From Salinibacter sp. 10B (GTDB taxonomy: Bacteria > Bacteroidota > Rhodothermia > Rhodothermales > Salinibacteraceae), in assembly GCF_002954405.1 (NCBI RefSeq), contig NZ_MQWC01000004.1:384318-448317 (forward strand): DNA of 64,000 nt, written 5' to 3'. Made by a program: the position numbers and the translations under genes. The notes below the pieces were generated by a model. The model was not told the origin of the DNA. It made no database searches and saw nothing but the letters and a program-made list of their open reading frames with translations. Position 1 is the first letter of the stretch. Each line of letters begins with the position of its first letter. Positions 5,644 through 17,163 of this stretch are shown here, piece by piece.

Positions 5644-5656
5644 GTCGTTACTCGGC
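5635..5656. terminator. Hairpin at convergent gene junction
   Basis: GCCGAGT (5635-5641) pairs perfectly with ACTCGGC (5650-5656) around an 8-base loop. The stem contains the stop of the amidotransferase gene and lies on the stop of folB, so one hairpin could end transcription from both sides. There is no clear T-run, so intrinsic termination is only possible. Confidence 0.4.
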
Positions 5657-6088
5657 CTCATCGGTATTGTCAATGTAGTATGTCGCTTCCGCCCGGTCAC
5701 ACGGTCCCCCCACCGGCGGATTTGGCTTTCGGACCGTTACCTCTACCCCCTCAACCGAGGGGTACGTCTCCAGCACCTTGTGAGCAATTCGGTACGCTAG
5801 CTTCTCGATCAGGTAAAAGTTATTCTCCGTCACGAGCGTCCGGACGTACTCATAGACCTTCTCGTAATTCACCGTCCGATCCAGGTCGTCGTGGAGGGCA
5901 GCTTCCTCAAAATCCAACTCCACCCCTACGTCCACCTCGTAGCGCCCGCCCACTTTGTGTTCTTCCTGCATCACGCCGTGATGACCGTAAAATACGGCAT
6001 TCACCAGGCGGACCCGGCCGGTCGAGGATCGGCCGGAGGACGGATGGGCATCAGACTCAGACACGTCGTCGGCGTTTATATCAGTCAT
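5648..6088 (-). CDS. folB: Dihydroneopterin aldolase
   Basis: This 146-residue enzyme converts 7,8-dihydroneopterin to 6-hydroxymethyl-7,8-dihydropterin and glycolaldehyde in folate synthesis. Family motifs seen in order are FYGHHGVMQEE (33-43), DLDRTVNY (about 69-76), FYLIEKLAYRIA with the pterin-binding Glu (about 90-101), and VRKPNPPVGG with the catalytic Lys (about 118-127). The first 24 residues are a Ser/Asp-rich extension not found in most FolB. It is 37 bp downstream of the PfkB kinase gene on the same strand, probably one transcript. Epimerase activity is common in this family as well. Confidence 0.92.
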   Translation of the reverse strand: MTDINADDVSESDAHPSSGRSSTGRVRLVNAVFYGHHGVMQEEHKVGGRYEVDVGVELDFEEAALHDDLDRTVNYEKVYEYVRTLVTENNFYLIEKLAYRIAHKVLETYPSVEGVEVTVRKPNPPVGGPCDRAEATYYIDNTDEAE

Positions 6089-6125
6089 TGGAGAAGCCCC
6101 GATGCAAATAAATCCGAACCGGGGG

Positions 6126-7064
6126 CTACGCGGGCTGCTTCTCTACGGAAACGAGGCTGGGAATGGCCGCCAGGTCTCGGAACGACTGCGCCCGCTCACT
6201 GATGTCGATCGGGCCCAGCTCAAGCAGGCGCTCCGGCCCGAACCGTTCAACCACGAACGACGCCATGACGCTGCCATAGACGACCGCGCGGCGGAGGGCT
6301 TCATGATCGATGCTCTCTGCCCGCACCAAATGGCCCGCGAGTCCTCCCGCAAACGCGTCTCCAGCCCCCGTCGGATCCTGAATGTCTTCCAAGGGATAGG
6401 CCGGTGCACTAAACACGGACCCGTTGGCAAACAGGAGCGCCCCGTGCTCCCCCTTCTTGATGATCAACGTCTCCGGGCCCATGTCTCGGATGACGTCCGC
6501 TGCCGTCACGAGGTTCGGCTCATCGGCCAGCTCTCGGGCCTCTGAGTCATTGATGACGAGGCAGTCCACAAGTTTGAGCGTCTCGCGCAGGCTCTCGGGC
6601 GTATTCTCGATCCAAAAGTTCATCGTGTCGGCAATCACGTAGCCCGGATCGTCGACCTGCCGGAGCACGTCGCGCTGCACCTTCGGATCGAGGTTGCCAA
6701 GACAAACGATTTGACTGTCATTGTACGAGGCTGGAATGTCCGGCGCGAATCCCTCAAGCACGTTGAGCTGGGTCTCCAGCGTGTCGCGCTCGTTCATGTC
6801 GTAGTGATAGCGCCCATGCCAAAAGAAGGTTTTCCCGTCCTCATTCACGTCAAGGCCTTCGAGATCAACCCCTCCGTCCAATAGGGTTTGACGATACTCG
6901 TCGGGAAAATCATTGCCCACGACGCCCACGAGACGAACATCGTCGGTAAAATACCGGGAAGCGAGGGTAATATAGGAGCCACTTCCCCCCAGTACCCGCT
7001 CAGCGGAGCCGAAGGGGGTTTCGATAGAATCAAACGCAACAGTGCCAACAGCGAGAATGCTCAC
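6126..7064 (-). CDS. PfkB family carbohydrate/nucleoside kinase
   Basis: This 312-residue protein belongs to the ribokinase/PfkB family, which phosphorylates sugars or nucleosides with ATP. The N-terminal GGSGSY motif (about 26-31) and the C-terminal signature DPTGAGDAFAGG, carrying the anion hole and catalytic Asp, are both intact. Middle residues include a VINDSEA segment typical of the family, and IIKKGEHGALL near the ATP site. Substrate specificity cannot be fixed from sequence; adenosine, ribose or another sugar are all possible. It sits just upstream of folB on the same strand. An inverted repeat at 7136-7169 separates it from the next gene upstream. Confidence 0.88.
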   Translation of the reverse strand: MSILAVGTVAFDSIETPFGSAERVLGGSGSYITLASRYFTDDVRLVGVVGNDFPDEYRQTLLDGGVDLEGLDVNEDGKTFFWHGRYHYDMNERDTLETQLNVLEGFAPDIPASYNDSQIVCLGNLDPKVQRDVLRQVDDPGYVIADTMNFWIENTPESLRETLKLVDCLVINDSEARELADEPNLVTAADVIRDMGPETLIIKKGEHGALLFANGSVFSAPAYPLEDIQDPTGAGDAFAGGLAGHLVRAESIDHEALRRAVVYGSVMASFVVERFGPERLLELGPIDISERAQSFRDLAAIPSLVSVEKQPA

Positions 7065-7135
7065 AGGTACGTCTAGACGACTCTTAAAAAGTGGACTCGA
7101 ACGCGAAGAAGCTAAGGGTCAGGCACGGCTCATAA

Positions 7136-7169
7136 CAGGGCCTTGTACGAATTCCCGACCAAGGCCCTG
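7136..7169 (-). terminator. Perfect 10-bp stem-loop, possible terminator
   Basis: CAGGGCCTTG (7136-7145) and CAAGGCCCTG (7160-7169) form a perfect GC-rich 10-bp stem with a 14-base loop. It lies just after the end of the gene at 7213-7956 and before the PfkB start, both minus strand. Only a short TTAT follows on that strand, so it could be a weak terminator, an attenuator or an mRNA-stabilising hairpin. Confidence 0.5.
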
Positions 7170-7212
7170 CGCCGCACTCTCCAGCCTACAGGCCGGGTCT
7201 CTTCAGCTCACC

Positions 7213-7956
7213 TTACAGCCAATGGCGGAGCTTCGCAGCTAAGTAGCTTCCCGCGGCAAGGCCAGCCAGCCCCAAAGCCGTCCGCGTGTACGAGCGACCC
7301 TCTGTTGACGCTCCAGAAACGGTATCAGACACGGCATCTGCGTACTCCTCCACGGCCTCCGTGGCCTGCTCGCCCAGCGTTTCCCCGAGCTCTTTGGCCC
7401 CCTCTCCAGCCTTGGCGCGCTGCTTCTTGAGGCGCTGCGCGGCTTTGCCGGTCGCCTCGCGGAGTCGTTCGGATGCACTCTTGGCAATGTCCTGTGCTTC
7501 CCGCTGCGCACTGCGACTGGCCTCCTGCGCGTCCGCTGCCAGGCGTTGCCCGGTCTTCTGGGCTCGTTCACGCAGCTCAGCACCGGAGCGGGCCGCACGA
7601 TCACTCACCTGATGGCGGAGACGAGACGCCGCCTGTCGGGCATCGTCGGTCAGTCGGCGCAGGCGCTGCCGGGCGTGCTCGGAAAGGGTGCGGGGTGGGC
7701 GGGGACGAGTCGCCATTGAAGCGCCGTAGCCCGCCGCGGCCCCAACCCCGACCGAGAGCGCCATGGTGAGAAGCGGGTGCCGCTGAATCCAGTTCTTCGC
7801 GCGGGCTTTCGCCTGCTGGGCTTTGAGACGGGTAATCTCGGCGCGCAATTCGCCAACGAGCTCTCGGAGATCCTTCGAGGTCTCGTCAGCCGCTTCCTCA
7901 TTGTTGCGAGTATCGGGGTCCTGGGACGTGGAAGATGCAGAATCGTCGGTGCTCAT
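7213..7956 (-). CDS. Ala/Arg-rich coiled-coil protein with ElaB/YqjD-like membrane segment
   Basis: This 247-residue protein has an acidic Ser/Thr/Asp N-terminus and a short coiled coil (about 28-55, LRELVGELRAEITRLKAQQ). A Gly/Ala-rich hydrophobic segment follows at about 64-84 (HPLLTMALSVGVGAAAGYGA). Then come about 110 residues of Ala/Arg/Glu/Gln-rich amphipathic helix and a second hydrophobic patch at the C-terminus (LAGLAAGSYLAAKL). The first membrane segment resembles the DUF883 (ElaB/YqjD) anchor, a family tied to ribosomes at the membrane. The helix resembles apolipoprotein/LEA-like repeats. I chose the ATG at 7956; upstream codons read as Cys/Arg/His-rich noise. Function is not established. 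Confidence 0.7.
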   Translation of the reverse strand: MSTDDSASSTSQDPDTRNNEEAADETSKDLRELVGELRAEITRLKAQQAKARAKNWIQRHPLLTMALSVGVGAAAGYGASMATRPRPPRTLSEHARQRLRRLTDDARQAASRLRHQVSDRAARSGAELRERAQKTGQRLAADAQEASRSAQREAQDIAKSASERLREATGKAAQRLKKQRAKAGEGAKELGETLGEQATEAVEEYADAVSDTVSGASTEGRSYTRTALGLAGLAAGSYLAAKLRHWL

Positions 7957-8095
7957 GAGTGGATGGGTGCTTGAACGGAGAAACGTAGATGAACAGGAGT
8001 GGAGCCTGGCACAACGGCACGGGTAGCCGTGCCACTGCACAAAGCCTCATGCGGAAAGTATCATCGGCCCGGCAGAAATCGACCGTACCTTCTTC

Positions 8096-8347
8096 CTAGT
8101 CGCGAAAAAGGGATCCGAGAACAACGCCGGTGGCAAACGCTCCGAGCATAGAGGCCTTCTGATGCTCCTCGACCCACGATCGCGCGACGCTCAGGGCGAA
8201 CGACGCCTGCATTTTTGCCGAAGAGAGGGGATCGGGCTCCCCGGAGGCATCGGAGGCCCCGAACGATGGACCGTCGTCGGCCTCCGAGTCTCTCATCTGT
8301 TGGAACGGATCCGGGTCCTTCTCTTCGCGTGAAGGGGAATCAGTCAT
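8096..8347 (-). CDS. Small protein with C-terminal DUF883-like anchor, unknown
   Basis: This 83-residue protein starts with an acidic, Ser/Asp-rich 45 residues and ends with a Gly/Ala-rich hydrophobic segment, SMLGAFATGVVLGSLFRD. That segment closely resembles the C-terminal anchor of ElaB/YqjD-type proteins. I took ATG 8347; the longer reading adds a Cys/His-rich stretch without matching composition. It lies upstream of the related 7213-7956 gene on the same strand and diverges from the TPR gene. I infer that it is a small membrane-bound stress or ribosome-associated protein; I cannot name it. Confidence 0.6.
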   Translation of the reverse strand: MTDSPSREEKDPDPFQQMRDSEADDGPSFGASDASGEPDPLSSAKMQASFALSVARSWVEEHQKASMLGAFATGVVLGSLFRD

Positions 8348-8571
8348 ATCGCTGTGAAAACACCAATGACCAGAACACGGCGAGCGGTTCACGTGAATGC
8401 CCCCTCCGACTAACAGTATTCCTTCATGGGGCGGTCCAAGATACCGCTCAGAAAGACACACTTGTTCCCGGTAGTGCGCTCATTTTTGACGAACCTCTGG
8501 GCACCTCATCCCTTCCATTCCGTTAGGCTGTGGTATTCGATGCTCTTCGGTCTGTCCTTTCGATTGCGAGT

Positions 8572-11500
8572 ATGACTTCTACGCGTTCGGATATCGTTCC
8601 TCGGATGACTGTGTGGGGCCTTGTGATGGCGAGCCTTCTTGCGCCCTTCACGGCGTTTGCTCAGGAAACCGCGCCTTCTGCCCAAAGAGAATTTGCATCG
8701 GCGGTGGAGCTCTACAACCAACGGCTCTATGCCGAGGCCATGACGGCGTTCGACGCCTACCGGGCAGCCTACCCTACCCATTCGCAGGCCGGCCAGGCCC
8801 TCTACCTGGAGGCCAAGGCGGCGCTCGCGCAGAACCGCGACCAGGAGGCCATTCGGCTCTTCAAGCGATTCCAGCGTACGCGCCCCTCCCATCCGCGAGC
8901 AGCGGAGGCCCAATTGAGCCTCGCACAGTACTTCCTTGATGAAGGAGACACCGACGCCGCTCGAAGCCAGCTTCAATCTATCATCGACGACCCCGCCACG
9001 CCCGCCCAGGCGGCTCGCGCCTTGTACCTCTTCGGGAAAACCGAACGCGAGCGCGGCAGTCTCGACCGGGCCCTGCGCTATTTTCAACAGGTAAAGCGCG
9101 ACTACCCCGACACAGACGTGGCGCCCGCTGCCTTTTATGCTCTCGGTGCCACGCAGGTGCGCCTCGAACGCTACGACGCAGCGGCCGCCTCGTTCGAAGA
9201 GTTGGGACGGCAGTTCCCGACCTCTCCTTTTGCACGCAACCTTGGAACCGCCCTCGCCGAGGTGTACTACCGTCTTGAACAGTACGAGCAGGCCGCCACT
9301 GAGCTTCGCGGACGTCTCGACCAACTGCAAGGCTCGCAGCGGGCCCGTGCCCTGTTCCTCCTCGCCGAAGCCTCAAACCACCTGCGCAACGGCGAAGATG
9401 CGGTCGTGCACTACCGTCAGGTGATCGACGAATACCCGAACACGCCGTATGCGGGGCCGGCCACGTACGGTCTGGCCTGGCACTACTTTCGGGCGAAGGA
9501 ACATCAACAGGCGGCCGAGACCTTTTCGCGGGTTCGACGTGAGGCTGCATCTCCCCTCTCGGAAAAGGCCACCTACTACGAGGCCGTAAGCCGGGCGTTG
9601 GCCGGCGCGACAGATCGAGCGGTGGAGCTCTACCAAACCACCGCCGAGCAGCAGCCTGAGAGCCGTCTTGCCGCAGAGGCCTTGTTCGAGGCCGGTCTGC
9701 TCCGCTACCAACAAGAGCAGTATGGCTCGGCAGCAGCCTTTCTCCGTGCCCTCGTGCGCGACCATCCCGAGGCCGAACGGGTCGGCGATGCGTACTACTG
9801 GCTCGGCAACGCGTACCTCGTGGACGAGAGCCTAGACCGCGCGCTTCAGGCGTACAACCAGGCCGCCAAACGCGATTCCGCTCCCGACTCCCTGCTTGTC
9901 GAAGTCCGCTTCCAAAAGGCCTGGGCCCAGTATGAGAAGGATCGATTTGCGGACGCGGCTCCGGATTTTCTTGCATTGGCCGATGCTCACGCGAATACCC
10001 CCCGCGGCCGGGAGGCTCTCTTTTGGGGAGCCGACTGCCACTATCAGCAAAACAACTATGGTCGGGCCCGCACCCTCTTTCAGCGGTACTTGGAGGAAAA
10101 TCCAACCGGCGATCACGCCGTGGCCGCCCAATACGCTCTGGCCTGGACGTACTTCAAACAGAATCGCTTTCAGCCCGCAGCGCGCTTCTTTCAACAGTTC
10201 CTGAATGCCTTCGACGACCAACAGACGGACATTCCCTACGCTCAGGACGCTCGTCTACGCCTCGCCGATAGCTATTTGGCCATGAAGCAGTACGAGAATG
10301 CCCTTGAAGTCTATCGGCGGGTCGGCGGCCAGGGGGCCGATTACGCGCTCTACCAGGCGGGGGAGGCACTCAACTATGCAGGTCGACGCGAGGAGGCCCT
10401 CCGCACACTTCGCCGCTTTGTGGAGCGCTATCCAGATAGTCGCTGGCACCCGGAGGTCCTCTACCGAATCGGGGCCGTACACTTTCAACTACAAGAGTAC
10501 GAAGCGGCTGTGGAAGCGTATCAGCGCTTCCTGGACACGTATGCGGATCATCGTCTCTCCCCAGAGGCCCAATACGGCATTGGGGACAGTCACTACAATG
10601 CTGGCGAGATGGAGCAGGCCGTACAGGCCTACCGGACCGTACTCGAAGAATACCCCGAAAGCCCAACCGCCAACGAGGCCGCCTCAAGCCTTTTCTTTGC
10701 TCTTAGCGCAGCGGGGCAAAGCGATCGTGCCGACGAGCTGATCGCGTCGATTGCCAAGCAGAACCCGAACGCAAACCTTGAAGACCGGCTTCGCTTCCAG
10801 CGTGCAAAAGCGGCCTACCAGAGCGGCGATTCTGAGCAGGCCCTCCGCCTTTTCCAGGAGTTTGTGCGCACCTCGTCCACAACCGCTCTCCTGCCCGAAA
10901 CCTACTACTACCTCGGCCTTCTATACGCCAACGACGACGCAACGACTGAGGCCAAAAACTACCTACAACAGCTCGTCAACCAGTACCCCGATAGCGATGT
11001 CCTGCCAGAGGGGGCCCTTCGGCTCGGAGATCTCTACATGGACGAGGATGCCTATACGAAAGCCATGGACGCCTACAAGGCAGCCGCTGAAAGCGACGCC
11101 ATCAATGACGAGCTTCGCGCCCAGGCCCGGTACGGGCAAAGCACAGCCCTGCTAAACCTCGACCGCAACGATGAGGCGAAAACCATTCTAAACCGGATTC
11201 TGGACGAGGCGCAAGGAGGCCCGCTGCAAGCCTCGGCGCGGCTTGGGCTCGCCCGAATCTACGAGGACGAGGGACAGTCCGGAAACGCCCTTGGACTCTA
11301 CCGGCGCGTCGTAGAAGACTCCGACAGTGAAACCGGGGCTGAGGCCCTATTCCGACTCGGGAAACTGCTCCGCGAGCAGGGCAATCGGCAGGACGCGATC
11401 CAGGAGCTCGACCGTATGTCCGCTCTCTTTGCTGGATACCCTGAATGGGTGGCCAAGTCCCTTCTCGAACAAGCCCGAGCCTATCAGGAAATGGGTCAAA

Positions 11501-11595
11501 CCGGCCAGGCCGCTCAGCTTTACGATCAGGTTGTAAACTCGTACCCGGGCACGCCCTTCGCCCAAACCGCGAAGGAGGAGCGCCAGTCCCTCTAG
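8572..11595 (+). CDS. Exported tetratricopeptide-repeat protein (BamD/YbgF-like TPRs)
   Basis: This 1007-residue protein begins with a signal peptide ending near ALLAPFTAFA-QE and then consists almost entirely of TPR units. The recurring pattern is YPxSxxAxEAxYxLGxxxxxxxxYxxAxxxFxxFLxxYP, as found in periplasmic BamD, YbgF/CpoB and gliding/secretion scaffold proteins. There are roughly 25 repeats. ATG 8572 is chosen; another ATG at 8605 also leaves an intact signal peptide, and an upstream GTG at 8530 is less likely. It heads a plus-strand run with an outer-membrane barrel (45 bp downstream), HU, HU-SPOR, ExbB and ExbD genes. A role as a large periplasmic scaffold is likely; its partners are unknown. 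Confidence 0.85.
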   Translation: MTSTRSDIVPRMTVWGLVMASLLAPFTAFAQETAPSAQREFASAVELYNQRLYAEAMTAFDAYRAAYPTHSQAGQALYLEAKAALAQNRDQEAIRLFKRFQRTRPSHPRAAEAQLSLAQYFLDEGDTDAARSQLQSIIDDPATPAQAARALYLFGKTERERGSLDRALRYFQQVKRDYPDTDVAPAAFYALGATQVRLERYDAAAASFEELGRQFPTSPFARNLGTALAEVYYRLEQYEQAATELRGRLDQLQGSQRARALFLLAEASNHLRNGEDAVVHYRQVIDEYPNTPYAGPATYGLAWHYFRAKEHQQAAETFSRVRREAASPLSEKATYYEAVSRALAGATDRAVELYQTTAEQQPESRLAAEALFEAGLLRYQQEQYGSAAAFLRALVRDHPEAERVGDAYYWLGNAYLVDESLDRALQAYNQAAKRDSAPDSLLVEVRFQKAWAQYEKDRFADAAPDFLALADAHANTPRGREALFWGADCHYQQNNYGRARTLFQRYLEENPTGDHAVAAQYALAWTYFKQNRFQPAARFFQQFLNAFDDQQTDIPYAQDARLRLADSYLAMKQYENALEVYRRVGGQGADYALYQAGEALNYAGRREEALRTLRRFVERYPDSRWHPEVLYRIGAVHFQLQEYEAAVEAYQRFLDTYADHRLSPEAQYGIGDSHYNAGEMEQAVQAYRTVLEEYPESPTANEAASSLFFALSAAGQSDRADELIASIAKQNPNANLEDRLRFQRAKAAYQSGDSEQALRLFQEFVRTSSTTALLPETYYYLGLLYANDDATTEAKNYLQQLVNQYPDSDVLPEGALRLGDLYMDEDAYTKAMDAYKAAAESDAINDELRAQARYGQSTALLNLDRNDEAKTILNRILDEAQGGPLQASARLGLARIYEDEGQSGNALGLYRRVVEDSDSETGAEALFRLGKLLREQGNRQDAIQELDRMSALFAGYPEWVAKSLLEQARAYQEMGQTGQAAQLYDQVVNSYPGTPFAQTAKEERQSL

Positions 11596-11640
11596 CGCTT
11601 GCGATGCCCCCATCGCTGCTTTTCCGAATCGACTCCACCC

Positions 11641-13419
11641 ATGCGCTTCCCCGTGATCGCCGCTCTTGTCCGTATCTCCGCCCGTTCCACGTGCCGCCTT
11701 TTCGCTGTCTTCATTTTGGTGTGCGTTTTGCCCTACAACAGCGTCGCCCAGGAGCAAGGCGACGCCCCCGAGCAGCAGTTGCCTGAGATTGCTCCGCAGG
11801 AGATCGAAATCCGGGGGGAACTTCAGTTGTCGTTTCCGTCCCTGAAACGCCAGCCGCTCCGGGGCTTTGCCTCGCCACCGACCATCCCCTCAGTTCCAGA
11901 CGGACGGATGCCGTACGTTGAGCCCTACAAGCAGGCCTTGGAAGATCTGCCGGAAAGTTTGCCGGCGCCGGACGCTGCGTCTCAGACGGTGAGTACCCCA
12001 GCCGACCCTCAGGAGGGGTTTGTGGAGATGGGCGGCGGGCGGTACCTTTCTCGATTTGCTCGGGGTCGCCTCTCCTTTCCCTTCACAGCACAACAAACGC
12101 TCTCCGTTCGCGCCGACTATTCGGGTCTGGACGGCTTCTCGCCATTTCCGGGCTCAGACGTGTCCACTCCCTCCGACGTCTTTGATGGAGCCCTCTTGTT
12201 CGAGAGCCGCCACGACGCTCTGGCAGTCACGGCAGACGTCCACGCACAGGCCCAGCGCTATACCCTCTACGGCCTCCCACCCGTCGGGCAAGATACCGCC
12301 GCGATTGCCCCCGATCGGTCGGGGTACACGACGGGCTCTGCCCTCCGACTTCGCACGTTCGGATCGATCACGTCGTCGGTAGAGGTCTCCTTCGATCGTA
12401 CACAGTATACCAGCCAGTTGGCCCCTCGTCCGGATGCTCCATCGGACGCGTACCACGAACACCGGCTCGCCTTCGACGGGTCACTCACGGTCCCCATCGG
12501 GCGCATGGCTACGACCCTGGATGCGCTCGCCCACCGTGCCTCGTATGGCGGCGACGTGCCCAACCATACGGGGTATCGGGTCGGCAGCGGTCTTTCCCTT
12601 CAGTTGGCAGACTCCGATGCTCTCTCGGCCACCCTGGGAGGACGATTCCTTGGGTTTGAGGCTCCCGCGACTCCACGCCAGCGCACCGACAACACGGCGT
12701 CCGCTGCCTTCATCGCCCCGGCGGGGCGGGTGGAGCTCTCGTTGGCCCCTGGGGTCACCCTCTTTGCCGAAAATGCTCCGTCGGTCACGTCGGACGGCCT
12801 CGCCGATCTTTATCGTCGGAATCCGTACGCCGAGCACGCCCCCTCCGTTCGCCCCACCCTCTACACCACAAAGGCCGAGTCCGGCGTACTTCTCTCTCTC
12901 GGCCCGCTTCGCATCCAGCCCACAGCGGGATACCGGTATGCCCCAAGCTACCAGTACACCCAAAACCCCTCCTCCTTTGTCCCCAACGTCCCTCTGCTCG
13001 TTCAACACGCCTCTGCCCGAATCATTCACGGAGGCGGCCAGATCGCCCTCCAGGGCCTCACCGGGGTGGAAGCATCGGTAGATGTCTCCGTTCGAGACGG
13101 TGAGCTAGTTGGAGATAATGCCCCTATCCCTTACTTTTCCCCACTGGTCACCGATGCGATGCTCTCGGTCTCCTTTGCGGATCAACGCGGTTTACTCCAA
13201 ACGACGGGCACGATCGAAAGTCCGCGTCCGACGACGCCCTCCGGCGATACCGAAGTGGGCACCTACATACACTTCGACCTCGAAGGCTCTTACGCCGTAT
13301 CCTCCCTCCTTGACATTGTCGTCCGGGCAAAGAACCTCGGCCCTGAGGCCCCAAAGAAATGGGCCCGGTATGCCCGTCCCCCTGCAATGATCATGGGTGG
13401 GGTTCGAATTCATTGGTAG
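11641..13419 (+). CDS. Outer-membrane beta-barrel protein (TonB-receptor-like)
   Basis: This 592-residue protein has a signal peptide cleaved near NSVAQEQG (residues about 35-38). A Pro/Gln/Glu-rich leader follows, and then alternating hydrophobic/polar beta-strand sequence to the end. It finishes with IMGGVRIHW; a terminal aromatic residue is typical of outer-membrane barrels. No clear plug domain or TonB box is visible, so it is shorter than a full TonB-dependent receptor. It follows the TPR gene by 45 bp and comes before the HU and ExbB/ExbD genes, suggesting it is the outer-membrane part of the same system. Cargo or function is unknown. Confidence 0.75.
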   Translation: MRFPVIAALVRISARSTCRLFAVFILVCVLPYNSVAQEQGDAPEQQLPEIAPQEIEIRGELQLSFPSLKRQPLRGFASPPTIPSVPDGRMPYVEPYKQALEDLPESLPAPDAASQTVSTPADPQEGFVEMGGGRYLSRFARGRLSFPFTAQQTLSVRADYSGLDGFSPFPGSDVSTPSDVFDGALLFESRHDALAVTADVHAQAQRYTLYGLPPVGQDTAAIAPDRSGYTTGSALRLRTFGSITSSVEVSFDRTQYTSQLAPRPDAPSDAYHEHRLAFDGSLTVPIGRMATTLDALAHRASYGGDVPNHTGYRVGSGLSLQLADSDALSATLGGRFLGFEAPATPRQRTDNTASAAFIAPAGRVELSLAPGVTLFAENAPSVTSDGLADLYRRNPYAEHAPSVRPTLYTTKAESGVLLSLGPLRIQPTAGYRYAPSYQYTQNPSSFVPNVPLLVQHASARIIHGGGQIALQGLTGVEASVDVSVRDGELVGDNAPIPYFSPLVTDAMLSVSFADQRGLLQTTGTIESPRPTTPSGDTEVGTYIHFDLEGSYAVSSLLDIVVRAKNLGPEAPKKWARYARPPAMIMGGVRIHW

Positions 13420-13470
13420 TGAGACGTTCTGTGCCGCTGCACCTTCAACTCTGCCCCTTGCAATCGGACG

Positions 13471-13498
13471 ATACGAAACGGATTTTCGCTTTTCGTAT
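13471..13498. promoter_or_regulatory. Inverted repeat upstream of mini-HU gene
   Basis: ATACGAAA (13471-13478) and TTTCGTAT (13491-13498) form a perfect 8-bp inverted repeat with 12 bases between, in the 131-bp gap between the barrel gene and the HU gene. It could be an operator, or a hairpin modulating readthrough. No T-run follows, so a classical terminator is unlikely. Confidence 0.4.
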
Positions 13499-13550
13499 AT
13501 CCTGACCCCCCTGTTCGCTCGTCCTTTTCGCTGTCCTCCCATTTGCTGCC

Positions 13551-13757
13551 ATGAGCACGCCCTCCGCCGAAGACATCATCAAGGCATTTGTTCGCGTTAC
13601 GCGCAAGAAACTCGAAAATGGAGAGACCGTGCAGGTCCCCGGCTTCGGCACCTTCTCTGTGGAGCACCGTCCTAGTGAACAGAAAGAAGGCCCGGACGGT
13701 GACAGCTACATGAAACCCCCTCGGGACGTCGTCACCTTCGAGCCCGAACAGCAATGA
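13551..13757 (+). CDS. Short HU/IHF-family DNA-binding protein
   Basis: This 68-residue protein keeps the core of the HU/IHF fold. The N-terminal helix (EDIIKAFVRVTRKKLENGETV) is present, as is the invariant turn VPGFGTFSVEHR at 29-40. MKPPRDVVTFEP at the C-terminus corresponds to the post-arm strand. Canonical HU is about 90 residues: here the first helix pair is shortened and the DNA-binding arm is reduced to a Glu/Lys/Gly/Asp-rich loop (41-53). It is probably a divergent nucleoid-associated protein, perhaps unable to bend DNA strongly. It lies 30 bp upstream of a second, membrane-tethered HU-like protein. Confidence 0.85.
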   Translation: MSTPSAEDIIKAFVRVTRKKLENGETVQVPGFGTFSVEHRPSEQKEGPDGDSYMKPPRDVVTFEPEQQ

Positions 13758-13787
13758 CCTTTTTTTCTCGTTGGCCTCTCTACCGCT

Positions 13788-15335
13788 ATGTCTGCCCCGA
13801 TTCATTCTCTGCTCGCCGACGAACTGGACCTCCCCGACGCGAAGGCAAAAAAACTGCTCGGGGCCATGCTCCGTGAGGTACGCAAGCGGGCTCGTCAGGG
13901 GGTACGCCTGCCCGACTTCGGAAAATTCTCGGAGGAAAATGGCACCTTGGTCTTTGAGCCCAGCGAGTCACTGGCTCGTGCTGTGAACCATCGGTTTGAG
14001 GGGCTGGACACAGAGGACCTTGGGAGCGCCCCCGACACATCAGCGGAAACGAACACAGACGACTCGGACGGCGGGCCCGATACCATTACGCTCGGCTACC
14101 AGGAAAGCAGCAACTGGAGCCCGATTGATGGCGAGGACGACGAAGAAGAAACGGAACAAACGAGCGACGAGCCAGACACGGCAGAATTCGAGGTCCCGTC
14201 GGCGGAAGAAGCGGCAGACACCGAGGAGCTTCAGACCTCTTCTACGGAGCCCTCTGACGCACCGACCGACCCGCCCTCCGATTCCTCTTCAGACGTTTCT
14301 TCTACCGAGGAGGGAGGGGCCCGTACAGAAACGGAAGAACTGTACCCACTTGTCGAGGACATGCCGAGCGGCCCCGACGAAGAAGACGCCTCGTCGGCCT
14401 CTGCCTCTTCGGCCCCTTCGGACGAGGAGTACGACGAAGAGCGCGATTCCCTCTCCGGCATCTGGGGATCCGAGGAAGAACAGTCCGAAACGGAGGCGCC
14501 CCCCTCCTCCCCATTCGAGGAGGAGCCTGAGCCCGCGTCTGCGTCGGACGAGGATGTCGATCCATTCTCTGGTTCAGATACATCGGAAGACGCTCCTGCG
14601 ACGAAGCCCGTCGACCAGTCCCCTCCCACCTCCGATTCCGATCCAGAACCTGCCCTGGACCCCGAACCCACCCCGGATGCCCCCGAAGAACCTCAACCGG
14701 CTCCGCCGGCATCGGAAGACCCACCAGAAGATACGGAAACAACCTCTACCACCCTCCGGGTCCTTACCTCCCTGCTGATCCTACTGCTGGTGGGGGGAGG
14801 GGCGTGGTACATCCTCGGCCAGCAGGGCATGGTTCCCGGCCCCGGAACCACGTTTGCCCAACTGGAATCCCGCCTGCAGGGCACGACGGCCCAACCCAAT
14901 GCGTCATCCTCAACCGGCCCGACCACCTCGTCTTCTGGGGAGACGCCCGAAACGTCGGCCTCTGAGGAAGCAGAAACGACCTCTAGCACAGACAATGCAG
15001 AATCGACTGCGTCCTCCGCATCGTCGGATTCCCCCTCCGACGAGACGACCGCAACGACCGACTCGTCTCCGCGCCTCGATCCGACAGCAGGCGGCTGGAC
15101 GATCATCGTTGCGTCTCGCACCCAGCAAGCTCCCGCCCGCACCCTTGCCTCCGACTTTCGCCAACGTTTTGCCGATCAGCAGACGCCGGTCGGCGTCCTT
15201 TCCGGAAACGTCGAGAACACGACTCGGTACCGTGTGGGCGTCGGGCAATTTGACTCTCGAGAGGCTGCCCAACAATTTCTCGACCAGCACGGCTCGAAAC
15301 TGCCGGACGGCGCTTGGCCTCTGCGTCTACAGTAA
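13788..15335 (+). CDS. HU-like domain, acidic linker, transmembrane segment and SPOR domain protein
   Basis: This 515-residue protein joins four parts. Residues 1-70 resemble the HU domain found in Bacteroidota SPOR proteins (helix pair, then VRLPDFGKFSEENGTLVFEP). Residues about 75-320 are an extremely acidic, Ser/Thr/Pro/Glu/Asp-rich disordered linker. Residues about 325-343 are one transmembrane helix. After a Ser/Thr-rich spacer, residues about 435-514 form a SPOR domain (GGWTIIVASR ... YRVGVGQFDSREAAQQFLDQH), a fold that binds glycan strands of peptidoglycan lacking stem peptides. The topology would put the HU domain in the cytoplasm and the SPOR domain in the periplasm. It follows the mini-HU gene and precedes exbB by 41 bp. 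Confidence 0.85.
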   Translation: MSAPIHSLLADELDLPDAKAKKLLGAMLREVRKRARQGVRLPDFGKFSEENGTLVFEPSESLARAVNHRFEGLDTEDLGSAPDTSAETNTDDSDGGPDTITLGYQESSNWSPIDGEDDEEETEQTSDEPDTAEFEVPSAEEAADTEELQTSSTEPSDAPTDPPSDSSSDVSSTEEGGARTETEELYPLVEDMPSGPDEEDASSASASSAPSDEEYDEERDSLSGIWGSEEEQSETEAPPSSPFEEEPEPASASDEDVDPFSGSDTSEDAPATKPVDQSPPTSDSDPEPALDPEPTPDAPEEPQPAPPASEDPPEDTETTSTTLRVLTSLLILLLVGGGAWYILGQQGMVPGPGTTFAQLESRLQGTTAQPNASSSTGPTTSSSGETPETSASEEAETTSSTDNAESTASSASSDSPSDETTATTDSSPRLDPTAGGWTIIVASRTQQAPARTLASDFRQRFADQQTPVGVLSGNVENTTRYRVGVGQFDSREAAQQFLDQHGSKLPDGAWPLRLQ

Positions 15336-15376
15336 CGGTCCGTTTTCCGTCATTCACTCGTTTGCCTCGTTGCTTC

Positions 15377-16090
15377 ATGGTCTTTCTTCAGCAAGTCGAT
15401 AGTGTGGCCGCGGACACGGCCCAAGCAGCCGCCGCGCAGACCTCCTCCGTCCTCGACATGCTCGTGCTTGGAGGATGGGTCATGATTCCCCTCGTCCTCC
15501 TCTCAATTCTCACGATCTACCTGCTTATCGAGCGGCTCATCACAATCCGACAGGCATCGTCCAATCCCGATGCCATTACGGATCGAGTTCGGGACTTTGT
15601 GCGCAACGGAGACGTGGAGGGGGCCATTGCCTACTGCGAAAAGAAGGATGTCCCGATCACCCGCATCCTGCAACAGGGACTCGAACGACTGGGACGTCCC
15701 ATCTCGGAGATTCAGGACGCCGTGCAGGCAGCTGGGAAGCACGAAACGTTTGAGCTCGAAAAGCGCACCAATCTCCTGGCCAGCATCGCGGGCATTGCCC
15801 CCATGCTCGGCTTTTTCGGTACTGTGCTTGGAATGATTCGGGCCTTTCAAGAAATCCAGAACCTGCAAGGAAATGTAAATCCGAGTGTGCTGGCGGGCGG
15901 GATCTGGGAGGCCCTTGTGACAACAGCTGCCGGTCTCCTCGTCGGGATCCTGGCCCTCTTCTCCTACAACTTCCTCATTGGCCGCATCCGTCGCCTGACG
16001 AACGATATGGAGCGGTCCGCTACCGACTTCATCGATCTGCTACAGGAACCGGTGTCCTCCGGCCAGCGAAAGAAGGAGGCCCTCGGATAA
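15377..16090 (+). CDS. exbB: MotA/TolQ/ExbB proton channel family protein
   Basis: This 237-residue inner-membrane protein has the ExbB/TolQ layout: TM1 at about 29-52, a cytoplasmic loop, TM2 at 135-157 with the family signature GFFGTVLGMIRAF, and TM3 at 180-203 (TTAAGLLVGILALFSYNFL). With ExbD it would form a proton-driven motor that energises a periplasmic arm protein. ATG 15377 is preferred; an upstream start overlapping the SPOR gene would add a non-hydrophobic arginine-rich leader. It sits between the HU-SPOR gene and exbD. No TonB or TolA gene is adjacent, so I cannot say whether it serves TonB-type transport or a Tol-like envelope role. Confidence 0.92.
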   Translation: MVFLQQVDSVAADTAQAAAAQTSSVLDMLVLGGWVMIPLVLLSILTIYLLIERLITIRQASSNPDAITDRVRDFVRNGDVEGAIAYCEKKDVPITRILQQGLERLGRPISEIQDAVQAAGKHETFELEKRTNLLASIAGIAPMLGFFGTVLGMIRAFQEIQNLQGNVNPSVLAGGIWEALVTTAAGLLVGILALFSYNFLIGRIRRLTNDMERSATDFIDLLQEPVSSGQRKKEALG

Positions 16091-16135
16091 CCGTCCTGGT
16101 TCTCGCGTGTCGTCTTCAGCACTTGTCTCTGCTCT

Positions 16136-16543
16136 ATGTCCCTCGACTTCTCGCCCTCCCGGGAGCCCATGACGGACATCAGCTTGGCCGGCATGACGGA
16201 CATTGTCCTGCTCCTGCTGATCTTCTTCCTGCTCACCTCGAGCTTCATCCCTCAAATGGGCATTCAGGTGACCCTCCCGGAGGTGGACACTTCCGCTCCG
16301 GTCGACGAACAATCCATCACGGTCGCCCTCACGAAGGACGGCACCTACTATGTGAACGGCACGCCCGTGGCCGGCTCTCGCCTGCTCGAGGAAATCCGCG
16401 CTGCACGCACCGCTCAGAGTACCCTCATCGTTCGTGCCGACCAGGCCGCCACGATTGAACAATTCGCTTCGGTCGCTTCTGCCGCCCGCGCGCTCAACAT
16501 GCGCATCCTCGTGGCAACCGAACGCAGCGGCCGCTCCCCGTAA
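16136..16543 (+). CDS. exbD: ExbD/TolR family biopolymer transport protein
   Basis: This 135-residue protein has a short cytoplasmic N-terminus, one transmembrane helix at about 20-38 with the proton-carrying Asp22 (GMTDIVLLLLIFFLLTS), and a periplasmic domain with the family pattern ITVALTKDGTYYVNG and LIVRADQAAT. It pairs with ExbB encoded 45 bp upstream. Only one ExbD copy is present, whereas many Bacteroidota clusters encode two. The gene is followed by a 329-bp gap with no TonB/TolA gene, which leaves the arm protein of this motor unidentified; the SPOR protein encoded just upstream is the closest candidate. Confidence 0.92.
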   Translation: MSLDFSPSREPMTDISLAGMTDIVLLLLIFFLLTSSFIPQMGIQVTLPEVDTSAPVDEQSITVALTKDGTYYVNGTPVAGSRLLEEIRAARTAQSTLIVRADQAATIEQFASVASAARALNMRILVATERSGRSP

Positions 16544-16872: not shown

Positions 16873-17163
16873 ATGACCCGCACCGCTGTCCATCAAGCCA
16901 TTCAATTTGAAGGGTTAATTGAGGGCTGCACCGACTACCAGTGGTTGCTCACGGATGCATTGTATGAGGCAGCCTCGTCGTCGGGCGAGCCGTCCCCGCG
17001 CTGGCTCATCAAAAGCCAGGATCAGAAAGCCGAGGAATCCTCCTATCAGGTACACTACCACTTTACGGATCGCCAGTTAGGACTGCATCTGTCGGCGCCC
17101 TCCGCACCGGCACTGGCCGAAGAAATTCGCACCCGCTTCCACAACCACAAGACGAATCAGTGA
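16873..17163 (+). CDS. Small soluble protein, unknown (first of overlapping pair)
   Basis: This 96-residue protein has no signal or membrane segment and no motif I recognise. It opens with helix-like sequence, has Trp/Tyr-containing turns (CTDYQWLLTDALYEA; SPRWLIKS), then a beta-like VHYHFTDRQLGLHLSAP segment and a C-terminal helix. The mixed alpha/beta look suggests a small globular fold. Its TGA stop overlaps the GTG start of the next gene in GTGA, a sign of translational coupling, so the two products probably act together. No function is assigned. Confidence 0.6.
   Translation: MTRTAVHQAIQFEGLIEGCTDYQWLLTDALYEAASSSGEPSPRWLIKSQDQKAEESSYQVHYHFTDRQLGLHLSAPSAPALAEEIRTRFHNHKTNQ

Follow-up and report, generated by a model that had tools for sequence, protein, structure and literature searches.

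A conserved Tol/Ton-type gene cluster of Bacteroidota linking ExbB/ExbD genes with those for an outer-membrane barrel and an HU-SPOR protein

The six-gene locus and its products

We analyzed a 64,000-nucleotide stretch of the Salinibacter sp. 10B genome (the window; contig NZ_MQWC01000004.1, positions 384,318 to 448,317) that carries, within positions 8572-16543, six consecutive plus-strand open reading frames (ORFs). They encode a giant exported tetratricopeptide repeat (TPR) protein, an outer-membrane barrel, a small HU-like protein (mini-HU), a protein in which an HU-type domain is joined through an acidic linker and one transmembrane (TM) helix to a SPOR domain (HU-TM-SPOR, hereafter HU-SPOR), ExbB, and ExbD (Table 1). 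A first-pass annotation made from the sequence alone had proposed these six genes and identities, and ORF and domain scans agree with it. The cluster is a real, conserved module of the Tol/Ton type. The TPR protein starts with a hydrophobic signal ending in AFAQE, and the Pfam listing for this protein covers 25 of 37 families.

No Pfam family matched the barrel above its cut-off. AlphaFold2, run on 40 orthologues, modeled a barrel of ~22 strands (pLDDT 81.5, pTM 0.74) with a disordered N-terminal stretch and no plug domain. All 50 PDB matches listed for this model were TonB-dependent transporters (TMq 0.55-0.63, rmsd 5-10 Å, E 2.6e-17 to 9.1e-15), the best being FepA, PfeA, and BtuB. Mean relative entropy across the 40 sequences was 2.29 bits in the tail at residues 45-62, where pLDDT falls below 50, compared with 1.71 bits for residues 63-120 and 1.25 bits for the barrel. 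Residue I57 of the tail is kept in at least 90% of sequences, and the forms EIEIRG, EFVITG, and DFVITG occur among orthologues. TonB boxes bind TonB by strand addition, and by its sequence the tail may be read as resembling such a box. The barrel was present in 67 of 74 genomes of the class and absent from the seven genomes of family f7.

The HU-like domain of the HU-SPOR protein had no Pfam match in the window; in relatives it matched Bac_DNA_binding over cut-off (L059, E 2.3e-7) and HU-CCDC81_bac_2 below cut-off. A structure model of HU-SPOR shows an HU core (H5-13, H17-35, E39-41, E45-50, E53-58, H60-68) with a short hairpin where the DNA-gripping beta-arm is expected, followed by a single TM helix and a SPOR fold. 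The model as a whole is poor (pTM 0.33) because it is mostly linker, and a fold search with it returned nothing at E <= 0.001, as expected at that score; the RlpA SPOR domain with denuded glycan (6i09) was listed at TMt 0.68, but with an E of 0.024 and from this low-confidence whole model. The SPOR domain scores over its Pfam cut-off, lies beyond the TM helix, and is predicted to bind glycan. The acidic linker of the first-pass annotation is present, with 251 residues (71-321), 82 of them D/E and 3 K/R. Three HU-SPOR copies from the same genus measure ~282-290 aa in all, so of those four genomes only this one has the long linker. Linker acidity also fits halophile proteins in general.

The mini-HU is, by eye, an HU protein without its first and last helix that retains the arm length. 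With a pI of 5.0 it is acidic, the values in relatives spanning 4.2 to 9.4; its sequence lacks RNPxTG, the basic tip motif of the long beta-arm of HU/IHF. Mini-HU and HU-SPOR are one protein in five f7 loci and overlapping separate genes in a sixth, and the SPOR protein opens with what by eye appear to be two HU domains in Pontibacter (L203) and in family f18 (L118, L126). The two proteins therefore look like halves of a tandem HU, and they probably pair. The HU-CCDC81/SPOR proteins of Bacteroidetes, reportedly treated by Burroughs et al. in 2017, likewise have clan-related HU domains joined to a TM helix and SPOR; the difference is that the tandem is here split into mini-HU and HU-SPOR. SPOR proteins without HU occur in intact clusters (L109, L110, L125, L167, L176) and at L122, where the barrel is also absent. 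The HU part is thus an optional half of a split tandem HU.

A DNA-bending HU was rejected as a strong claim, given the short hairpin in HU-SPOR and the acidic mini-HU without RNPxTG. Any DNA binding remains putative and is not the core function. On the same grounds, and with HU absent from the SPOR proteins of several lineages that keep the other genes, the nucleoid coupling put forward in the first-pass annotation is doubtful.

Table 1. Features of the cluster, in window coordinates
Feature	Positions	Strand	Evidence
Exported giant TPR protein, ~1007 aa, putative periplasmic scaffold	8572..11595	+	Pfam TPR_6, E 6.6e-87, 14 stretches
Outer-membrane barrel, ~22 strands, TonB-dependent-transporter type, plugless in the model	11641..13419	+	AlphaFold2, PDB fold search
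Disordered N-tail of barrel, residues 45-62, motif LPEIAPQEIEIRG, proposed arm docking site	11773..11826	+	Conservation, low pLDDT
Mini-HU, 68 aa	13551..13757	+	Pfam Bac_DNA_binding, E 3.6e-11
HU-TM-SPOR protein, 515 aa	13788..15335	+	Pfam, structure model
HU-type domain of HU-TM-SPOR, ~residues 1-70, short hairpin	13788..13997	+	Model
TM helix of HU-TM-SPOR, residues 322-345	14751..14822	+	Model, hydrophobic stretch
SPOR domain, residues 434-514	15087..15329	+	PF05036, E 5.6e-7, 30.2 bits (cut-off 21)
ExbB/TolQ-type motor subunit, start inferred	15377..16090	+	MotA_ExbB PF01618, E 8.3e-33
ExbD/TolR-type motor subunit	16136..16543	+	PF02472, E 1.8e-22

A TonB/TolA-like arm displaced from its motor

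The first-pass annotation had stated that no TonB or TolA gene is adjacent. Locally this is correct, as the TonB_C domain had no match anywhere in the 64-kb window; it does not extend to the rest of the genome, which holds an arm orthologue, or to most of the relatives examined, in which the arm gene lies next to ExbD. In family f14, ExbD is followed by a gene whose product has a TM helix and a TonB_C domain with an acidic, proline-bearing linker between them. The Salinibacter sp. 10B orthologue of this arm (L071:4239-4964; G000:C4:4128238-4128963) is 3.7 Mb from the cluster, measured along the contig, and is the sole phmmer match among the 10 TonB-domain proteins of this genome, which has two ExbB loci. 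It matched four f14 arms with E values of 3.5e-25 to 1.1e-32, and EVEFGEF is invariant across these five sequences. The PF03544 TonB_C domain of the arm scored 28.7 bits (cut-off 24.6). In the genomes of the same taxonomic order (Rhodothermales) that were compared for position, the arm is likewise away from ExbD.

An arm match at E <= 1e-8 was found in 73 of 80 genomes of the class, and the seven genomes without one all belong to family f7. Five of the 73 matches were weak (three in family f3, G231, and G096; E 1e-9 to 1e-15). Among the 71 genomes common to the arm and motor samples, every genome with a cluster-type motor had an arm match (63 of 63; 59 strong and four weak, E 1e-9 to 1e-13), and seven of the eight without that motor, all f7, were also without the arm.

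Cluster motor, arm, and barrel are all absent from the seven f7 genomes. The only ExbB of each is an orthologue of the second ExbB of Salinibacter sp. 10B (333-345 bits by phmmer, versus 104-110 to the cluster ExbB) and is accompanied by the two matching ExbD genes. The profile of the cluster ExbB gave E ~1e-46 for f7 ExbBs and 3.2e-49 for the second ExbB of Salinibacter sp. 10B, versus ~1e-87 or better in every other genome of the class except G096. Since f7 keeps the other motor, it is the cluster motor whose absence coincides with that of arm and barrel. HU-SPOR is carried by six f7 genomes (G270 being left out of this count). Genome G096 has TPR, barrel, mini-HU, and HU-SPOR genes with no cluster motor after them (L088), a divergent ExbB elsewhere, and a weak, partial arm match. 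The f7 and G096 cases amount to one or two events in evolution rather than to many.

The second motor of Salinibacter sp. 10B (L068, G000:C4:1347000-1363000, positions 6154-8461) consists of ExbB and two ExbD genes, with no arm, barrel, or SPOR gene recognized nearby. By eye, TonB_C domains in this genome occur in unusual combinations: with repeats in a kinase-like protein (L077), twice in a membrane protein of peptidase-like type (L076), and behind lipoprotein-like starts (L069, L070). In G270, a 1016-aa TPR protein ends in a SPOR-type domain (L156:5381-8431), and the six remaining f7 genomes have SPOR matches in ORFs of 1028-1086 aa.

Conservation of gene order in relatives

Gene order was compared in two samples, and it is conserved far beyond this genome. 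The first comprised 39 ExbB-centred loci from 27 families, hand-chosen as best ExbB matches with one to few per family; six further ExbB-centred loci were left out of the count. Neighbours were counted on the same strand by HMM scans of all ORFs, using for the TonB-like arm a profile of 28 rows. The arm, barrel, TPR, ExbD, and SPOR profiles were trained partly on the counted loci, so the following counts are not fully independent of the models. ExbD was found in 38 loci, the barrel and SPOR in 31 each, the arm in 28, an HU-type domain in 23, and the TPR gene, upstream, in 21. These counts bear out the linked module around a proton-driven motor that the first-pass annotation had suggested.

The second sample, the named loci, consisted of the best 80 of at least 586 confirmed matches and is nearly independent of the first, with a slight overlap (L162 and L189). 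ExbD lies 3' of ExbB in all 80, and where the DNA reaches far enough (75 loci) a TonB-like gene comes next in 74, the armless one being a Rhodothermales metagenome-assembled genome (MAG) locus (L161). All six core genes occur together in 15 of the 80, including loci of Fulvivirga, Chryseotalea, Ekhidna, Algoriphagus, Echinicola, Belliella, and Pontibacter, and five of them (without TPR) in 5 more. With order conserved across the phylum sample, chance grouping is untenable. The SPOR gene still lies between barrel and ExbB where HU is missing (L109, L110, L125), and the SPOR part therefore belongs to the module.

In a midpoint-rooted tree, cluster ExbBs are far from the TolQ of family f23. Cluster copies enclose ExbBs that have no barrel beside them (from f26, Bacteroides, and others), which suggests an old linked cluster that was later broken up. 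In Bacteroides fragilis (L184), the locus reads ExbB-ExbD-arm, with a SPOR-type ORF only ~8 kb further on.

Upstream of the cluster on the other strand, window positions 5648-8461 hold FolB, PfkB, and two coiled-coil/YtxH-like genes. PfkB is in the same place at L051, L052, L054, L055, L056, and L067, and the coil genes are in L052 and L055. A 96-aa ORF 3' of ExbD (16873-17163) had no NCBIfam match. In f14, where no TPR gene precedes the barrel, the upstream gene encodes a PF03706 lysylphosphatidylglycerol-synthase-type membrane protein (L059:4255-5286).

A possible counterpart of Tol-Pal

A census of TolB_N (PF04052) in 296 genomes of the phylum found it in 19, and not in Salinibacter sp. 10B. 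TolB-length ORFs (389-476 aa) were present in 12 of the 19, ten of these in family f23. Five of five f23 TolB loci fetched read tolQ-tolR-tolA-tolB-pal-cpoB, with the genes beside the TolB match assigned by eye, and the one f23 TolQ scored (L240) reached 239.8 bits, over the NCBIfam cut-off of 221. The cluster barrel profile was matched by 8 of 64 f23 genomes, weakly (E 1e-16 to 2e-21). Full complementarity of cluster and Tol-Pal was rejected: f7 has neither, and marginal signs of the two occur together in some genomes. The lack of both TolB_N and barrel matches in f17 also weighs against it. The proposed force system is found mostly in genomes without TolB.

We consider it somewhat better than an even bet that these genes specify a Tol-like system of Bacteroidota that transmits force across the envelope, and this system may stand in for Tol-Pal, which most of the phylum seems to lack. 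A Tol-Pal counterpart is the best reading offered by the genomic data. ExbB and ExbD (TolQ/TolR type) would form a proton-driven motor and the TonB/TolA-like arm would span the periplasm, probably pulling the conserved N-tail of the plugless barrel, its presumed docking site. The barrel would serve as outer-membrane anchor in place of TolB and Pal. The SPOR protein is predicted to read denuded septal glycan and may place the machine at division sites, and the TPR protein would act as a scaffold in the periplasm, similar to CpoB. In the cytoplasm, mini-HU and the HU domain of the SPOR protein probably associate into an optional docking unit, which is more likely to bind protein than to bend DNA. 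We infer that these parts would form a physical complex with a role in outer-membrane constriction. A stronger version is tentative and falls somewhat short of being probable: a machine of direct Ton descent that constricts the outer membrane at the septum, with the barrel replacing TolB-Pal and SPOR replacing the peptidoglycan hold of Pal, and thus a living TonB-to-TolA intermediate.

Like Tol-Pal, the cluster combines at one locus a TolQ/TolR-type motor, a periplasm-spanning arm with a C-terminal domain, a TPR protein, and a peptidoglycan-binding protein; Tol-Pal motor and arm are encoded together, which is also true of most of the relatives examined, whereas here the arm is displaced. The cluster differs in having a plugless barrel and a SPOR protein, and its six genes include neither TolB nor Pal. 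An OmpA domain (Pal) was not among the Pfam matches listed for these six genes, and no search for Pal extended beyond them. With the Ton system, the cluster shares motor and arm families, a transporter-fold barrel, and a TonB-box-like tail. It differs from Ton in the barrel, which is plugless in the model and only a presumed partner of the arm, in its tie to SPOR and TPR genes, and in the presence of a separate ExbB-ExbD-ExbD locus in the genome. The Myxococcus AglRQS-Glt/Nfs machinery is a compositional analogue, with a TolQR motor, a TonB-motif protein (GltG), and TPR and outer-membrane-type proteins; its outer-membrane proteins are others (GltH, 209 aa), and no SPOR protein appears in the portions of the article available to us (PMC3169522). 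PorE, described in a 2025 article as one CpoB-TolB-Pal-like fusion lipoprotein, has been proposed as an outer-membrane tether that fills the Tol-Pal gap in the same phyla (PMC12204202). No PorE-type fusion is among the six cluster genes, and the genome was not searched for PorE.

Several observations weigh against a Tol-Pal counterpart. The cluster ExbB scored 102.6 bits against TIGR02796 (tolQ), under the cut-off of 221, and the C-terminal end of the arm scores as TonB (TIGR01352, 39.8 bits, cut-off 27.1), with only 30.1 bits against tolA_full (cut-off 59.45); in these scores the cluster also differs from Tol-Pal. By BLASTP, f14 arms weakly matched four other TonB proteins of Salinibacter sp. 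10B (E >= 0.001). Linkage falls short of the five or six core genes counted above in 60 of the 80 named loci, many of them from Bacteroidales and some cut by contig ends, and neither barrel nor SPOR is within reach in 7 of the 39 ExbB-centred loci. The second ExbB sits in the tree on a long branch among cluster copies, not clearly outside them, its place being unsure. TolB_N and a cluster-type barrel co-occur in G243 (a 446-aa ORF), G238, G047, and G176, and in G085, G135, G239, and G242, where TolB_N lies in ORFs of 1037-1105 aa; the TolB_N matches in co-occurring genomes are mostly marginal. Family f7 has neither the cluster motor nor TolB_N, so cells can do without both. In Cytophaga hutchinsonii, chu_0135 was deletable without a growth defect in PY6 medium (PMC5891637); it is tolA by name and may or may not be the counterpart of the cluster arm.

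Some of these scores would fit an ordinary Ton energizer for nutrient uptake, in which the barrel is a degenerate transporter and the SPOR, TPR, and HU neighbours have other jobs. The TonB_C domain of the arm over cut-off, the transporter-type barrel fold, the 10 TonB-domain ORFs for only two ExbB loci, and Bacteroides-type ExbB-ExbD-arm loci without a barrel or adjoining SPOR gene all agree with it. We regard it as unlikely, though still a serious competitor: barrel, SPOR, and TPR genes stay with the motor across families, the barrel model is plugless, and a second, Ton-like ExbB-ExbD-ExbD locus exists that f7 keeps in the absence of cluster motor, arm, and barrel.

Less probable again is that HU-SPOR and mini-HU make up a unit of their own for division or chromosome partition, resembling FtsN but linked to DNA in the cytoplasm, and have no more than their locus in common with a Tol- or Ton-like motor. 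HU-SPOR is present independently in f7 and f23, it lies apart (L128, L129) from ExbB-ExbD-arm (L121, L141) in f26, and Burroughs et al. reportedly predicted in 2017 a chromosome-partition role for HU-SPOR proteins of Bacteroidetes. The position of the SPOR gene between barrel and ExbB even without HU argues otherwise.

The first-pass proposal that HU-SPOR is itself the arm, or a nucleoid-to-septal-wall cable driven by ExbB/ExbD, has in its favour an arm-like topology (a SPOR domain in the periplasm behind a single TM helix) and a place next to ExbB in most class loci examined, but is very improbable given the TonB-like arm that follows ExbD in most relatives examined and exists in this genome, the persistence of HU-SPOR in six f7 genomes that lack the cluster motor, HU-SPOR proteins in f23 (L060, L061), other genomes of which carry Tol-Pal, and SPOR proteins that start without an HU domain (L109, L110, L122, L125, L167, L176). 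A TonB/TolA protein encoded elsewhere as the sole partner of the motor had been named as telling against a linked system; an arm linked to the motor in relatives was found, the basis being gene linkage, which does not reach as far as sole partnership.

A literature search returned no recognizable description of this cluster among the papers searched, the 2017 work being outside its reach, and as far as it could tell the tie of HU-SPOR to barrel, motor, and arm is new here. For the Tol-Pal counterpart, a linked motor-arm-barrel-SPOR module across the phylum points to specific genes for the machine that has been missing. The module also offers a test of the origin of TolA from TonB, and Salinibacter sp. 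10B belongs to a lineage that hid its arm by relocation.

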